The notes below the pieces were generated by a model. It searched no databases and was not told the origin of the DNA. It worked only from the letters and a program-made list of their open reading frames with translations. Below are positions 10,956 to 18,663 of a stretch of 35,516 nt of DNA, in pieces. Source of the DNA: Candidatus Magasanikbacteria bacterium CG_4_10_14_0_2_um_filter_37_12 (GTDB lineage: Bacteria; Patescibacteriota; Patescibacteriia; Magasanikbacterales; UBA922); contig PFPK01000025.1 of the NCBI GenBank assembly GCA_002793015.1, positions 1 to 35,516 on the forward strand. Reading direction: 5' to 3'. A program made the translations under genes and the position numbers. Positions within the stretch are counted from its first letter, which is position 1; each line of letters opens with the position of its first letter.

Positions 10956-12944
10956 TTATCTAATTATTGTAAAAATACTAGAATAATCATCGGTCCACAA
11001 TCTTCTCGAAGTCCTAATTTTTTCTCCGAAGCCTACTGGATCTTTGGAAACAAACACCCATGTACTTTTGGACACGTACCAGGGAATATTTTCATTTGTC
11101 TCATACAATCTAGATGCCAGACCAGCATCTTTTGCCAGAGTTCCTATTATTGGAGACAGATCTAAGTGTCTATTGGAGATATGATAAGCGATAACTCCGC
11201 CAGGGATCAAATGTCTTTGGTAAATTTCCAGAGCTTCCTTTGTCAACAGGTGTGTAGGAATAGAATCTGACGAAAAAGCATCAATCACCAGCACATCAAA
11301 ATTTTGTGGCTCTTGTTGTGCCAATTGTAACCTGGCGTCCCCATCATGAATGGTAAGCTTTCCAGGGAAAGACTTTAAATAATCAAATTCATTCTTGGCA
11401 ATATTCACGACATCTGGATTGATTTCGTAAAACTGAATTTCTGCCACCTTATCACGGTATCCAGCTAATGTGCCCACGCCAAGACCGACTACACCCATCT
11501 TGATTTTTTTCTCATTATCCAGACTATCAATTAGCCACTCTATTCCAGAGCCTTGCCCGAAGTATGTTGTAGGTACTAGATTGTATTCTTGATTCATGAT
11601 CTGGGTGCCATGTAGTGTGTTCCCGTGCACCAGATTTTTTACTGTGATGCCATCTTTGGAAGAAATCTTTACCAGAAGGACGCCGAAAAAATTTCTAGAA
11701 AAAGATTCGCCTGTTTTGGCAAAAAGATGGTTGTTGTAAAATAAAATTCCAGTGAAGGCTATGGTAGTAAAAACAAGTAGTGAAGTTGTAATAAGATGAG
11801 TATGTAAAGTTTGTCGTGATTTTGGATCAACAGACATGGAGATAAACAGAATAACTAATACACCAAATATAGCAATTGGTGTTTCCAAAAGTGTTGAAAA
11901 AATGATTGGTACAATAACACCAGCAAAAATACCACCTAATGCCCCACCAAGCGAAAGACAAAAATAAAAGAGAGTTAGATTTTGTGATCTTGGTTTGATC
12001 AGATAAACCTCGCCATGACAAATCATGGCGCTGGCAAAAATCATTAGACCATAGGTAGAAATAGCAGAGCTCATACCTAATGCCAGATCATATAAAATTA
12101 CAAATTTTAGCAATGCTAGAAAAAACACTATAGAAAAAACCATCCGATTGTAAACAGATTTTTCTGAAAAAACTAGAATGAAAGTAAGTAGGTATAAAAA
12201 TAATGGGGCCATCCAGACAAAAGGCGTTGGGGTTATGTCTGTGGTCAATTGGTTAGTTATAGAGACCAAGAGCGAGGATGCTACGGCTGGAAAGGCAATC
12301 CAACGTAGTATCATAGAAGTTTTTTCTGTTATGTACCAGTGGAATTTATTTGGTTCTTGTTCAACAATTTGGTAGGAGAAGACAATCAGCAATATTACGT
12401 ACACTAAATAAGTAAATGCAAATAAGATAGACTGCATAGCAATCCCAAATAAAGGTTCAACGATGAAAGGATATAGAATCAATGAAAATACAGAAGCAAG
12501 ATTGGAGATAGCGTAGAGTTTGTAGGTTTTTTGTTTTTCTTTAGGCTCAACCCAGTACTGAATGAGTGGGGAAGTGCTAGCTAGTAGGAAAAATGGCAGA
12601 CCAATTAGTCTTGTGAGAGTTAGCATGAGGTCAATAAAATAATTTTCGGATGATGGGCTGATAGTCAGATTGAAAGAAAAAATAAACCAAAGCGATACCG
12701 CTAATAGACTGTAATGAATCATTTTTTGTATGTTTTGTGGCAGATAAGTAAGTAGATGGACGTAAGCATAACCAAGTAGTAAGACCACTTGAAAAAATAC
12801 TAGGGCTGTCACCCAAACCATCTGTCCACCTCCATAATAAGGTAGGAGGATTTTGGTGATTAGGGGCTGAAGGAAAAAAAGTAAAAAAGAACTACAAAAA
12901 ATAGTAGCTTTTGCTAATGTCTTTGGTTGGATTTTGTGGGGCAT
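10956..12944 (-). CDS. Polytopic membrane protein fused to a spermidine-synthase-like domain
   Basis: The 662-residue protein has roughly a dozen hydrophobic membrane segments in residues 10-420, for example FCSSFLLFFLQPLITKILL, VFFQVVLLLGYAYVHLL and GGALGGIFAGVIVPIIF, followed by a soluble Rossmann methyltransferase/spermidine-synthase-like domain. That domain shows GVVGLGVGTLAGY (nucleotide-binding loop), FYEINPDVVNIA, IHDGDARLQL, VLVIDAFSSDSIPTHLLT and GGVIAYHISNRHLDL. Membrane-fused spermidine synthase relatives are known in many bacteria, but their substrates are mostly unproven, and the DAFSSD motif differs from classical SpeE. It starts 17 bp after the carbamoyltransferase stop and precedes pyrD, so it appears to be part of the pyrimidine operon. 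Confidence 0.85.
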   Translation of the reverse strand: MPHKIQPKTLAKATIFCSSFLLFFLQPLITKILLPYYGGGQMVWVTALVFFQVVLLLGYAYVHLLTYLPQNIQKMIHYSLLAVSLWFIFSFNLTISPSSENYFIDLMLTLTRLIGLPFFLLASTSPLIQYWVEPKEKQKTYKLYAISNLASVFSLILYPFIVEPLFGIAMQSILFAFTYLVYVILLIVFSYQIVEQEPNKFHWYITEKTSMILRWIAFPAVASSLLVSITNQLTTDITPTPFVWMAPLFLYLLTFILVFSEKSVYNRMVFSIVFFLALLKFVILYDLALGMSSAISTYGLMIFASAMICHGEVYLIKPRSQNLTLFYFCLSLGGALGGIFAGVIVPIIFSTLLETPIAIFGVLVILFISMSVDPKSRQTLHTHLITTSLLVFTTIAFTGILFYNNHLFAKTGESFSRNFFGVLLVKISSKDGITVKNLVHGNTLHGTQIMNQEYNLVPTTYFGQGSGIEWLIDSLDNEKKIKMGVVGLGVGTLAGYRDKVAEIQFYEINPDVVNIAKNEFDYLKSFPGKLTIHDGDARLQLAQQEPQNFDVLVIDAFSSDSIPTHLLTKEALEIYQRHLIPGGVIAYHISNRHLDLSPIIGTLAKDAGLASRLYETNENIPWYVSKSTWVFVSKDPVGFGEKIRTSRRLWTDDYSSIFTIIR

Positions 12945-12961
12945 AACTTTTATCCCTTACA

Positions 12962-13918
12962 CTATATTACCATTCCTTCTTTCTCCAGCATCCACATCAT
13001 CATGGCTTTTTGCATATGCATACGATTTTCTGCTTGATCATAAATCACTGAATTTTGGTGATCAATAGCATCGCGGGTTATCTCGTAGCCTACGTGACAC
13101 GGCATACAATGCATGATTTTGCACATCGGAGCATATGTATCAATCAGATGAGCATTGAGTTGGTATGGCTTGAATTTCTCTTTCCGTTCATCATAAGCAG
13201 ATTGGAATTCTGGCTTCACCTTTCCTCCATCAAAAAATTCCATATCCATCCAGGTATCAGTGTGGACGTACTGGGCGTCTGTCATGGCTTCGGCTATATC
13301 CATTGTCCTTATCACATTGCCAGATGCTGTAGCCATAGCGTTCAGCTCTGGATCGACACTTGGACCATTTACTTCTGGAGCAACAATGTATACTTTGATT
13401 CCCAATTTTGCACATGCAAGCATGAGAGTATTTGAAACATTATTTTCAATTCCTAGCCAGACAATTTTTTTGACATTTTCAATACCCCCTGAATGTTCGG
13501 CCATAGTCAGCAGATCACTGAGTGCTTGGGCGGGATGATATTTTTCACTACAAGCATCAATTACTGGAATATGATTGTAGCTTGAGGCAAGCATCACATC
13601 TTCTGCTTTAAGTGCACGGAACATGAGGATGTGCCCAAAGCGCATGATTGCCTGGATTTCATCTCGGAAATCAGCCAGAGACATTTGGCTTGTGCGAGCG
13701 TCTAGAAAAATGGCATGGCCACCAAGTTCAGTCATTCCAGCTTCAAAAGATAATCTGGTTCTTGTGGATGTCTTTTGAAATAGCATGACGAGCGTTTGAT
13801 TTTGTAAATAATTTGTTAGCTCACCGGCATTACGTTTTGCTTTTATTTTTTTAGCTAGATCAAGCATGGTTAATATATCTTCTTTGCTCTGTTCTTTGAG
13901 GGAGATGATGTGACGCAT
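12962..13918 (-). CDS. Ornithine-carbamoyltransferase-like protein, substrate uncertain
   Basis: A 318-residue member of the aspartate/ornithine carbamoyltransferase family. The carbamoyl-phosphate loop STRTR (51-55), HPAQ (128-131) and cysteine-containing HCMP (270-273) are all present; HCxP is typical of ornithine-type enzymes, whereas aspartate-type enzymes have HPLP. The ornithine-binding loop is unusual: where classical enzymes read D-x-W-x-SMG, this has DTWMDMEFF (221-229). Function as ornithine carbamoyltransferase (argF/argI) is the best guess, but another amine acceptor cannot be excluded. No other arginine gene is in the window. It stands between pyrC and the membrane fusion gene, 17 bp before the latter, so it probably shares the pyrimidine transcript. 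No Shine-Dalgarno precedes the start at 13918. Confidence 0.85.
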   Translation of the reverse strand: MRHIISLKEQSKEDILTMLDLAKKIKAKRNAGELTNYLQNQTLVMLFQKTSTRTRLSFEAGMTELGGHAIFLDARTSQMSLADFRDEIQAIMRFGHILMFRALKAEDVMLASSYNHIPVIDACSEKYHPAQALSDLLTMAEHSGGIENVKKIVWLGIENNVSNTLMLACAKLGIKVYIVAPEVNGPSVDPELNAMATASGNVIRTMDIAEAMTDAQYVHTDTWMDMEFFDGGKVKPEFQSAYDERKEKFKPYQLNAHLIDTYAPMCKIMHCMPCHVGYEITRDAIDHQNSVIYDQAENRMHMQKAMMMWMLEKEGMVI

Positions 13919-14069: not shown

Positions 14070-15254
14070 TTAACATTTGTATATTGTACCATTCAAAATA
14101 GTGGCAACAGGCCACCCCTTCAATTTTTTACCGTCAAAAGGGGACCAGCCACATTTTGTTTTTAGATTTTCATTTTTCACTTCACGTATCAGATCTAGAT
14201 CTACAATTGTCCAGTCGTTATTGCTTGGAATATTAAAAATGTTTTCAATATTAGTACGGGTTAGTTTTACAATTTTTTCTAAATTAATTCTACCCTTGTT
14301 GTGAGCGTCAAGTAGCAGGGGCAGACAAGTTTCAATACCTGGAACACCAGACGGAGCATGCCCATAGCTTTGAGATTTTTGTTCTAAAGTATGAGGGGCG
14401 TGGTCAGTCCCAATAGTATCGACAATATCATCGAGAATACCATTCCAAAGAGCATCTTGGTGTTCCAGAGTACGCAGGGGGGGGTTCATCTGCCCTTTAG
14501 TTCCCAAGCTAGCATAATCATTTTCATTAAGAAACAAATGATGGGGGGTCACTTCTGCATAAACTTGGACACCCTTCCGTTTTGCTTCGTCAATCAATAT
14601 TAGTTCATCTTTTGTGCTGACATGGAGGATGTATAATTTGGTATTATATTTTGTCGCCAACTCAATCGCTTGGGTCACAGCTCGTTTGGCAACTTCAGGT
14701 GTTCTAATTTTGGAATGATCAGTCACATCTGTAGTTTTGCCGATTTTCTTTTTTTGTTTTTGCATTTCTTTCTCATCTTCGGCGTGTACTCCTACTACAA
14801 GCCCAAGCTTACCAGCCAGCTCGAATATTTTGGCTTGGTTGGCTTTCTTGTCGACCAGCAGACTGCCAGTGCTTGACCCCATAAAAAGTTTTATCCCTAA
14901 AATTTCATTTTTTAGATCTTCTATATCTTTTAAGTTTTCTGTGGTTGCCCCAAGCCAAAGTTTGTAATTGATATGGACTTGAGAATCATCAAATAAATCT
15001 TGGATAACACTTTTTTTGTGTTCTAGGGTTTCTCTGTTTGTCGTTGATGGAATGTTGTTTGGCATATCAAAAACAGTGGTATACCCACCAGCAATAGCCG
15101 CTTGTTCGGCAGTATGCCAATCTTCTTTTTCTTGATCGCCAGGAATCCTAAAATGGACATGCGGATCAACCAGAGCAGGAAGGGCGACTAGATTTCCACC
15201 AGAATATTCTAGATCAATGGTAATGGTTTGGTTGTTATACGTCTTAATTTGCAT
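14070..15254 (-). CDS. pyrC: Dihydroorotase
   Basis: Cyclises carbamoyl aspartate to dihydroorotate. The 394-residue amidohydrolase has the metal ligands in order: DPHVHFR (H32, H34), the bridging lysine in GIKLFMGSSTG (K122), GVHAED (H157), ILHVSTKDE (H211), EVTPHH (H238/H239) and the catalytic Asp in GTDHAPHT (D284). MPNN near residue 64 is the usual substrate-binding segment. The start at 15254 follows ttggaataaataaa, a very weak Shine-Dalgarno at best. It is downstream of pyrI by 111 bp in the pyrimidine cluster. Confidence 0.96.
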   Translation of the reverse strand: MQIKTYNNQTITIDLEYSGGNLVALPALVDPHVHFRIPGDQEKEDWHTAEQAAIAGGYTTVFDMPNNIPSTTNRETLEHKKSVIQDLFDDSQVHINYKLWLGATTENLKDIEDLKNEILGIKLFMGSSTGSLLVDKKANQAKIFELAGKLGLVVGVHAEDEKEMQKQKKKIGKTTDVTDHSKIRTPEVAKRAVTQAIELATKYNTKLYILHVSTKDELILIDEAKRKGVQVYAEVTPHHLFLNENDYASLGTKGQMNPPLRTLEHQDALWNGILDDIVDTIGTDHAPHTLEQKSQSYGHAPSGVPGIETCLPLLLDAHNKGRINLEKIVKLTRTNIENIFNIPSNNDWTIVDLDLIREVKNENLKTKCGWSPFDGKKLKGWPVATILNGTIYKC

Positions 15255-15365: not shown

Positions 15366-15860
15366 CTAGCTCTTATACTCCCTGATATCATCATGTATAA
15401 ATATTTTTTCACAATATTTGCATCGAAGTTTGATGATATTGATATCACCATTGTGGCTCACATGAAAACAACTGCTCATCGTTTCGTTGTTGGTGATACA
15501 AGTAGGGTTTGGGCAAACAATTATTTTGTTGATTATTTCTGGTATTTTTACTTTGAATTTATCAGCTACTTTGAAATTACGAATAATATTAATGGTAGAG
15601 TTTGGGGCGAATATGGCCACGCGATTGGCTTCTTCTGGTGATAATTCTCTATTCTCTACTTTAATAATATCTTTGCGCCCCAGATTGCTACTAGGAAAAT
15701 TTAGCCCGACCGTCACAGTACTTTTGTGGCTAGCCAGCTTGAGAATATCAATAATTTTCATTGCTCGACCTACTTGGATGTGGTCGATTACTGTGCCAGC
15801 TTTTATGGCATATACTTTGAAAGCTCGTAAATCTTCCGGTGTTTTTTGTTCACTGGTCAT
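15366..15860 (-). CDS. pyrI: Aspartate carbamoyltransferase regulatory chain
   Basis: Binds CTP/ATP and zinc and regulates the PyrB catalytic chain. The 164-residue protein has the N-terminal allosteric domain (AIKAGTVIDHIQVGRAMKIIDIL, GLNFPSSNLGRKDIIKVEN) and a C-terminal zinc domain with C116-x4-C121 and C147-x2-C150 (CPNPTC, CKYC), as in E. coli PyrI. It starts 64 bp after pyrB on the same strand, so the pair forms a pyrBI unit. Its presence implies feedback inhibition of the pathway by nucleotides, in addition to the attenuator ahead of pyrB. Confidence 0.96.
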   Translation of the reverse strand: MTSEQKTPEDLRAFKVYAIKAGTVIDHIQVGRAMKIIDILKLASHKSTVTVGLNFPSSNLGRKDIIKVENRELSPEEANRVAIFAPNSTINIIRNFKVADKFKVKIPEIINKIIVCPNPTCITNNETMSSCFHVSHNGDINIIKLRCKYCEKIFIHDDIREYKS

Positions 15861-15924: not shown

Positions 15925-16947
15925 TTATGTGAGTTTTCCTAATACTAGTCCGAGTAAAGCTTGACGAACGTAGAGACCGTTGTGAGCTTGTTCAAAATAG
16001 TAGGCATGAGGGGTGTGGTCAACATCAGTGGCGATTTCATTCACTCTTGGGAGAGGATGCATGATACGCATGTTTGGTTTGGCACTTATTAGCATCTTAC
16101 TATCTAAGACATAGGTATTCTTTATTTTTTCATATTCCATTTTGTCTGGAAAGCGCTCCTCTTGGATGCGGGTCATATATAAGATGTCGGCACTGCTTAC
16201 TACATCCGCTATTTTTTCGTATAAAGTATATTTTACACCATGTTTATCCAAGTCATCACAAATGTAGTTGGGCATCTGCAAACTTTCTGGGGCTACGAAT
16301 GATAGCGTGGCATTGAAATTAGTAAGAGCCTGAGCTAGGGAGTGGACTGTGCGCCCATATTTTAGGTCTCCAATCATGGCAATATTTAGATTGTCCAATT
16401 TTCCTTGGCATTCTTGGATAGTAAATAAATCTAGTAGTGTTTGAGTAGGGTGTTGATTTGATCCATCTCCACCATTAAGAATTGGTTTATCGGTAGCTTC
16501 GGCTGCACGTTGGGCGGCTCCTTCCATCGGATGGCGCATGGCTATCACGTCGACATACTGACCAATGATTTTCATACTGTCATAGAGAGTTTCTTTTTTC
16601 TTTGCCGACGTCACTCCTGCTTCAGCAAATCCAATTATCTTACCACCAAGTCTACTCATTGCTGTCTCAAATGAGAGCCTGGTTCTGGTTGATGGTTCGA
16701 AAAAGCAACTGCCCATCACATAGCCTTGCAATAGATCTGGTTGGGGAGTCTCTTTCATTCCTTTAGAGTGTTTCAAAATATGTAAAATTCCTTCTCTAGA
16801 AAGTTCGTGGATTGAAATGATATCTCTACCGAAAAAGGTTTTTCTGCTTTTGTGTTGTTCTTCGGCTTCACTTTTTAATTTCGCTAGTATCTCCTCTTTG
16901 GACAGACCTTCCAAGATTTTTATTTCCTCCGTACTTAGGTCACTCAT
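15925..16947 (-). CDS. pyrB: Aspartate carbamoyltransferase catalytic chain
   Basis: Commits carbamoyl phosphate and aspartate to pyrimidine synthesis. The 340-residue protein has FEPSTRTRLSFE (STRTR 86-90), the lysine loop SAKKKET (115-120), HPTQTLLDL (166-174), HPLPRVNEI and a C-terminal LLGLVLGKL. A charged N-terminal extension of about 35 residues (EEIKILEGLSKEEILAKLKSE) precedes the usual start of the fold (FGRDIISIHELS). The start at 16947 lies 13 bp beyond the U-run of a leader terminator and has no Shine-Dalgarno, whereas the leader ORF has a strong one. It is first in the pyrimidine cluster and paired with pyrI. Confidence 0.96.
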   Translation of the reverse strand: MSDLSTEEIKILEGLSKEEILAKLKSEAEEQHKSRKTFFGRDIISIHELSREGILHILKHSKGMKETPQPDLLQGYVMGSCFFEPSTRTRLSFETAMSRLGGKIIGFAEAGVTSAKKKETLYDSMKIIGQYVDVIAMRHPMEGAAQRAAEATDKPILNGGDGSNQHPTQTLLDLFTIQECQGKLDNLNIAMIGDLKYGRTVHSLAQALTNFNATLSFVAPESLQMPNYICDDLDKHGVKYTLYEKIADVVSSADILYMTRIQEERFPDKMEYEKIKNTYVLDSKMLISAKPNMRIMHPLPRVNEIATDVDHTPHAYYFEQAHNGLYVRQALLGLVLGKLT

Positions 16948-16960
16948 ATTTTTTGATTTT

Positions 16961-16989
16961 TAAAAAACTGCTACTTGGTAGTAACAGTT
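16961..16989 (-). terminator. pyrB attenuator (terminator hairpin)
   Basis: On the minus strand AACTGTTAC pairs with GTAGCAGTT (nine pairs, one G-U), with loop TACCAA, followed at once by a run of six T. The leader peptide stop codon TAG is inside the 3' arm. A ribosome close behind RNA polymerase would prevent folding, allowing read-through into pyrB. Confidence 0.75.
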
Positions 16990-17036
16990 TGAAAATTATA
17001 AATATTTATTTTTGACGATGTGGTCATGTCTTTCAT
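16971..17036 (-). CDS. pyr operon leader peptide
   Basis: A 21-residue ORF starts MKDMTTSSK and ends TVTTK. It begins 9 nt after AGAGGAG (minus strand, complement of 17037-17049), the clearest Shine-Dalgarno sequence I noticed. Its codons 9-15 are almost purely A/U (aaa ata aat att tat aat ttt), giving a U-containing stretch just before the terminator hairpin. Its stop lies within the 3' arm of that hairpin. This is the design of the enterobacterial pyrL leader, where low UTP makes RNA polymerase pause so that the ribosome catches up and blocks termination. The peptide sequence itself does not resemble PyrL. Confidence 0.65.
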   Translation of the reverse strand: MKDMTTSSKINIYNFQTVTTK

Positions 17037-17070
17037 TTGTTCTCCTCTGATTTTGCATGAGTGACTAAGT

Positions 17071-17114
17071 ATCATATCACTATATATCGTAGCAGATAAT
17101 ATTTTTTAGTACAA
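17071..17114 (-). promoter_or_regulatory. pyrimidine operon promoter (two overlapping candidates)
   Basis: On the minus strand, TTGTAC (17109-17114), a 17-bp spacer and TACGAT (17086-17091) form one candidate. An extended -10, TGATATGAT (TATGAT at 17071-17076), forms another 15 bp downstream. Both would give a short leader ending in the attenuator. A DnaA-like sequence TTGTCCACA is at 17147-17155. Confidence 0.45.

Positions 17115-17162: not shown

Positions 17163-18663
<1,501 letters not shown>

Follow-up and report, generated by a model that had tools for sequence, protein, structure and literature searches.

A probable pyrBI-type leader-peptide attenuator ahead of pyrB in Candidatus Magasanikbacteria and related Patescibacteria

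The closest described counterpart of the element reported here is the pyrL-pyrBI leader of Escherichia coli, in which the terminator lies inside the leader gene, whereas the terminators of amino-acid attenuators are >20 bp from the leader stop (PMC4824070). In E. coli, termination fell from ~90% to under 10% when the distance between a stop codon and the terminator after it was reduced from 28 to 5 bp (PMC4824070). As read from the E. coli K-12 sequence, pyrL is 44 codons long, has a leadered start of the Shine-Dalgarno type with gggagg ahead of it, and runs wholly through the hairpin and T-run to a stop 44 nt after the hairpin start. In E. coli a U-tract confers UTP sensitivity. Amino-acid leader-peptide attenuators of the trp and his type share with the present locus a short leader ORF followed by a terminator, but here there is no regulatory codon run and the leader stop is ≤15 nt from the terminator. 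The PyrR-dependent pyr attenuators of the Bacillus type also place a terminator ahead of pyrimidine genes; unlike them, the present locus has an ORF overlapping its terminator, and no Rfam element was matched at the locus or elsewhere in the window. PyrR control was rejected, with 0 of 59 genomes encoding a PyrR protein above the NF003549 cut-off.

The window, meaning the whole stretch of 35,516 nucleotides that was analyzed, belongs to an 870-kb genome in 48 contigs (G000), whose nearest named relatives by PyrB are Candidatus Magasanikbacteria (PyrB 73% identical), which places the host among the Patescibacteria. On its minus strand, the gap between the purA stop (near 17163) and the pyrB ATG at 16947 holds a short ORF and an intrinsic terminator. 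The genes around this gap are as follows.

14070 to 15254, minus strand: pyrC, dihydroorotase (TIGR00857, 318 bits)
15366 to 15860, minus strand: pyrI, aspartate carbamoyltransferase regulatory chain (TIGR00240, 178 bits)
15925 to 16947, minus strand: pyrB, aspartate carbamoyltransferase catalytic chain, the putatively controlled gene (TIGR00670, 373 bits)
17163 to 18455, minus strand (as pyrB): purA, upstream of the leader

Alignment from residue 1 with relatives G021 and G041 backs the pyrB start at ATG 16947. The host PyrB carries an N-terminal extension common only to these two relatives, and GGAGG followed by TTG within the pyrB coding start (16932-16912, minus strand) is a possible second start that would only partly remove it. 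An ornithine-type carbamoyltransferase is encoded separately, two genes beyond pyrI (12962-13918, minus strand); despite this gene, neither carA nor carB was found above cut-off in the whole G000 genome. A membrane protein of 662 residues, whose C-terminal part appears by eye to be spermidine-synthase-like, is encoded at 10956-12944 (minus strand). No similarity to phage DNA was found.

The predicted leader region comprises the following features.

16962 to 16990, minus strand: intrinsic terminator (putative attenuator), stem AAACTGTTACT/AGTAGCAGTTT, loop ACCA, T-run 16967-16962
16991 to 17013, minus strand: A/U-rich stretch before the hairpin, lacking in some relatives, with U at as many as 8 of 12 nt
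16971 to 17036, minus strand: 21-codon ORF of the preliminary description, MKDMTTSSKINIYNFQTVTTK then stop, beginning at an internal in-frame ATG of the longer leader
16971 to 17075, minus strand: probable leader ORF of 34 codons, MILSHSCKIRGEQMKDMTTSSKINIYNFQTVTTK then stop, with its stop in the hairpin 3' arm
17077 to 17079, minus strand: predicted site of transcription initiation, 2-4 nt ahead of the leader ATG, placed from the usual -10-to-start distance and the 10-nt gap
17086 to 17094, minus strand: predicted extended -10, TGC-TACGAT, of the TGn-TAnnnT form seen in relatives
17109 to 17114, minus strand: predicted -35, TTGTAC, 17 nt before the -10, with the TTGnnn-17 spacing seen in relatives

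The hairpin AAACTGTTACT-ACCA-AGTAGCAGTTT spans 16990-16965 (minus strand) and gives a stable fold, with z -2.5 for the leader alone and z -3.6 for the leader plus the pyrB start. The preliminary description had reported nine pairs followed by six T; the six T are there, after the core stem, while the pairs number 11, one of them G-U. Its stop codon in the 3' arm is confirmed (TAG, 16973-16971), as is the A/T-rich stretch ahead of the hairpin at about 16991-17013. The distance of 13 bp to pyrB that it gave is right for the end of the T-run (~13 bp) and wrong for the stop codon, which lies 23 nt before ATG 16947. A candidate antiterminator, CTGCTAC (17095-17089), that could pair with GTAGCAG in the hairpin 3' arm was rejected because it overlaps the predicted -10 and would therefore lie outside the transcript.

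Both the 21-codon ORF and the AGAGGAG motif (17048-17042, minus strand; 5 nt separate it from ATG 17036) are present as first described, and probably neither this ATG nor this Shine-Dalgarno motif is the one used to start the leader. Candidate starts were scored with a model of promoter plus distance to ATG, trained on other loci with the window and L004 left out. ATG 17075 scored 11.3 (TTGTAC-17-TGCTACGAT, 10 nt), ATG 17058 scored 4.9, and ATG 17036 scored -7.9 and was rejected as the main start; among random host ATGs, 0.28% reach 11.3, in a model whose spacing term is somewhat circular because the training loci were partly picked with limits on promoter-ATG spacing. In relatives, 20 promoters were picked, and 18 of them show the TGn-TAnnnT form. 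The leader thus probably starts at ATG 17075, 13 codons before the start first proposed, and would have 34 codons; since the two ATGs share a frame, the shorter ORF is probably its 3' part. AGAGGAG would then probably be internal, encoding Arg-Gly-Glu, and ATG 17036 with this motif may act as an internal start. As ATG 17075 is only 10 nt after the extended -10, the mRNA is predicted to be nearly leaderless. The strict detector picks instead ATG 17058 (MQNQRRTNERHDHIVKNKYL then stop, 20 codons in another frame, ending 11 nt before the hairpin), and this frame is a possible leader; ATG 17075, which only the trained model prefers, was chosen because its score is higher and because the stop position of its frame matches that of a relative's locus with a similar hairpin (L015). 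Leaderless-type promoters showed no excess at genes in general relative to a shifted control.

We gathered pyrB upstream regions from genomes related to the host at the level of family, order, class and phylum; these are metagenome assemblies, and one class dominates the set. A fixed detector was run on 68 class-level pyrB loci, with shuffled DNA upstream of each hairpin as the null. A terminator was present in 26 of the 68 upstream regions, and in 18 of these 26 it is combined with a short ORF close to the promoter whose stop falls at or within the hairpin, against 0.24 expected from shuffles. Of these 18, L109 may represent the 3' end of an upstream gene, and G000 is counted through its alternative frame; neither changes the result. 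At the 18 strict loci the stop codon falls from -11 to +15 nt from the hairpin start. This comparison could have overturned the leader-peptide attenuator claimed in the preliminary description, which instead emerges strongly supported. Read by hand, the recurrent plan is an extended -10 of the form TGnTAnnnT with a TTG-type -35 at 17 nt, then an ATG ~10 nt on (9-12 nt past the -10 in most loci, a model that the G000 start fits), opening an ORF of 10-36 codons whose stop lies within or closely before a terminator hairpin just 5' of pyrB. Hand reading added L015, L023, L080, L081 and L091, and the arrangement was found in >20 Patescibacteria genomes, covering Magasanikbacteria and relatives. Few cases were seen outside the main class (L191, L192, L202). 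In L191 and L192, from another class of the phylum, a short leader ORF before pyrB ends ~8 nt ahead of a strong terminator, which suggests that the device extends beyond the main class.

A background scan of 778 kb (378 kb from G000 and 400 kb from the relative G027), containing 273 terminators, matched the plan at pyrB in each genome, once falsely where an upstream gene ends, and once spuriously; a relaxed version found little else preceding a gene. The near-absence of the plan elsewhere in these 778 kb marks it as uncommon and linked to pyrimidine genes. Where pyrB sits behind carB in one operon (e.g., L010, L020, L021, L022, L083 and L084), no leader precedes it. In three genomes where carA heads the operon, the leader precedes carA instead (L118, MKYFFETIDLGVN; L120, MKTSSFFETHSSR; L125, MQYPIPDTIHHTHH; each then stop), and the pyrB genes of the latter two, genomes G008 and G079, have no leader. 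The leader was absent at four operon-head pyrB loci close to that of the host (L005, L008, L018 and L024). At one of these, L018 (G052), pyrB itself appears leaderless, with its ATG ~11 nt after a TACACT -10 and no attenuator. In L012 (G027), two leader-ORF/terminator units stand in tandem ahead of pyrB.

The leader peptides themselves have drifted. Among >20 of them we found no shared residues, amino-acid run or codon run. In one close pair the changed codons comprise 5 nonsynonymous and 2 synonymous changes, in another 5 and 0, and across the two pairs there is one in-frame 3-nt indel. Mostly nonsynonymous change together with an in-frame indel indicates that the frame matters and the peptide sequence does not; only frame, stop position and hairpin appear to be conserved. 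No conserved U-tract was found: G000 and roughly half of the relatives have a U-rich tract, and L003, L004 and L081 do not.

We consider it likely that a pyrBI-type leader-peptide attenuator, working through coupling of RNA polymerase and ribosome, controls transcription of the pyrB-pyrI-pyrC operon. The leader ORF, the promoter position, the terminator, the stop position, the conserved arrangement, the peptide drift and the move to the operon head all support this on sequence grounds; that termination occurs, that ribosomes relieve it, and what the signal is are inferred. The transcript would begin a few nucleotides before ATG 17075, and a ribosome would load at its 5' end immediately, needing no Shine-Dalgarno sequence, while RNA polymerase would meet the intrinsic terminator about 90-115 nt after the start. 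With ample nucleotides, polymerase would stay ahead of the ribosome, the hairpin would form, and transcription would end before pyrB. When a pyrimidine triphosphate (probably UTP and/or CTP) is low, polymerase would slow and the leading ribosome catch up; by reading into or stopping in the hairpin it would block the hairpin, and pyrB would be transcribed. Ahead of pyrB stands a short, presumably translated ORF that abuts or overlaps an intrinsic terminator, as in pyrBI-type attenuators, and stops at -11 to +15 nt from the hairpin start fit the direct-blocking class rather than amino-acid attenuation; a ribosome at such a stop is predicted to be close enough to block the hairpin directly. Counted against this explanation, polymerase could outrun the ribosome: because the leaders are short, it could reach the terminator first unless slowed. 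The lack of a conserved U-tract and the four nearby operon-head loci that have no leader also count against it. UTP, the signal named in the preliminary description, is a plausible candidate.

One further feature, absent from the preliminary description, is an inverted repeat linking the leader to the start of pyrB.

17057 to 17071, minus strand: left arm of the long-range repeat, within the 5' part of the leader ORF
16932 to 16947, minus strand: right arm of the repeat, covering the pyrB start codon

The arms (17071-17057 and 16947-16932) are complementary over 15 bases with one bulge, equalled in 0 of 2000 shuffles, and the minimum-free-energy fold of the read-through RNA includes the pairing. 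Specific to the host genome, this pairing might mask the pyrB start in read-through mRNA as long as no ribosome sits on the leader. That control in the host is mainly translational and of this kind nevertheless seems improbable to us: the pairing was not found in relatives, a duplex-energy test was unremarkable (34 of 300 shuffles as good), and the pairing could add to attenuation rather than replace it. Still harder to credit is that the hairpin is merely the terminator of purA and the short ORF a product of chance. purA does precede the locus in the same orientation, and terminators do sometimes have short ORFs nearby, but the leader persists while its upstream neighbors vary (a gatB tail, oppositely directed ORFs and others), the 18 cases observed stand against 0.24 expected, and a good predicted promoter separates purA from the hairpin.

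A leader peptide followed by a terminator would also suit amino-acid attenuation or a stalling peptide, with the ribosome pausing at particular codons or through the peptide sequence. The peptide drift described above, the stop so near the hairpin and the fact that the controlled genes make pyrimidines speak against such pausing, which we regard as very improbable. More room is left for a device of the same build that senses translation capacity (ribosome supply, leaderless initiation or general aminoacyl-tRNA supply) instead of UTP, strong translation allowing pyrimidine synthesis. The leaderless start, the lack of conserved U-tract or codons, and the arrival of a ribosome as the sole element common to all loci speak for it; it is nonetheless rather unlikely, for in the sampled genomes the device stands only ahead of pyrimidine genes, which favors a pyrimidine-linked signal.

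Returning to pyrimidine-responsive attenuation, the likeness to enterobacterial pyrL asserted in the preliminary description is a loose one. As in E. coli pyrL-pyrBI, a leader ORF overlaps an intrinsic terminator directly ahead of pyrB-pyrI, there is no obvious antiterminator, the peptide sequence is apparently unimportant, and a ribosome could block the hairpin directly. The two part in start type, leadered in E. coli and predicted nearly leaderless in the host, and in stop position: in Patescibacteria the ORF usually ends within the hairpin or shortly before it. The U-tract varies among the Patescibacteria leaders. An ORF through the whole terminator, not the case in G000, is confined to L017, L025 and a small number of others; in L017, L025 and L202 it extends across the terminator into the pyrB start, a layout closer to that of E. 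coli. Leader frames running over the terminator and overlapping or fused with the start of pyrB or carA were also noted in L030 and L124. The leader peptide matched no Pfam or NCBIfam model up to E 1, and no sequence relation to the enterobacterial pyrL peptide was detectable. Given the different start, stop position and sequence and the lack of a linking family model, we regard the element as a variant of the pyrBI kind and probably convergent with enterobacterial pyrL. More tentatively, the elements of Magasanikbacteria and related Patescibacteria might form a distinct attenuator class, evolved independently of enterobacterial pyrL, with leaderless leader mRNAs, a stop inside the terminator, a 70S ribosome that loads at the 5' end and races polymerase, and no dedicated UTP-pausing tract.

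Since few Patescibacteria can be grown, their gene regulation has hardly been explored, and no prior report of such an attenuator in this group was found in the literature searched, the coverage of which was incomplete. The arrangement described here would represent a recurrent, pyrimidine-specific control element in Patescibacteria that requires tight coupling of transcription and translation, and it points to more than one origin of pyrBI-type attenuation. The element may also serve as a compact reporter with which to follow coupling on leaderless mRNA.
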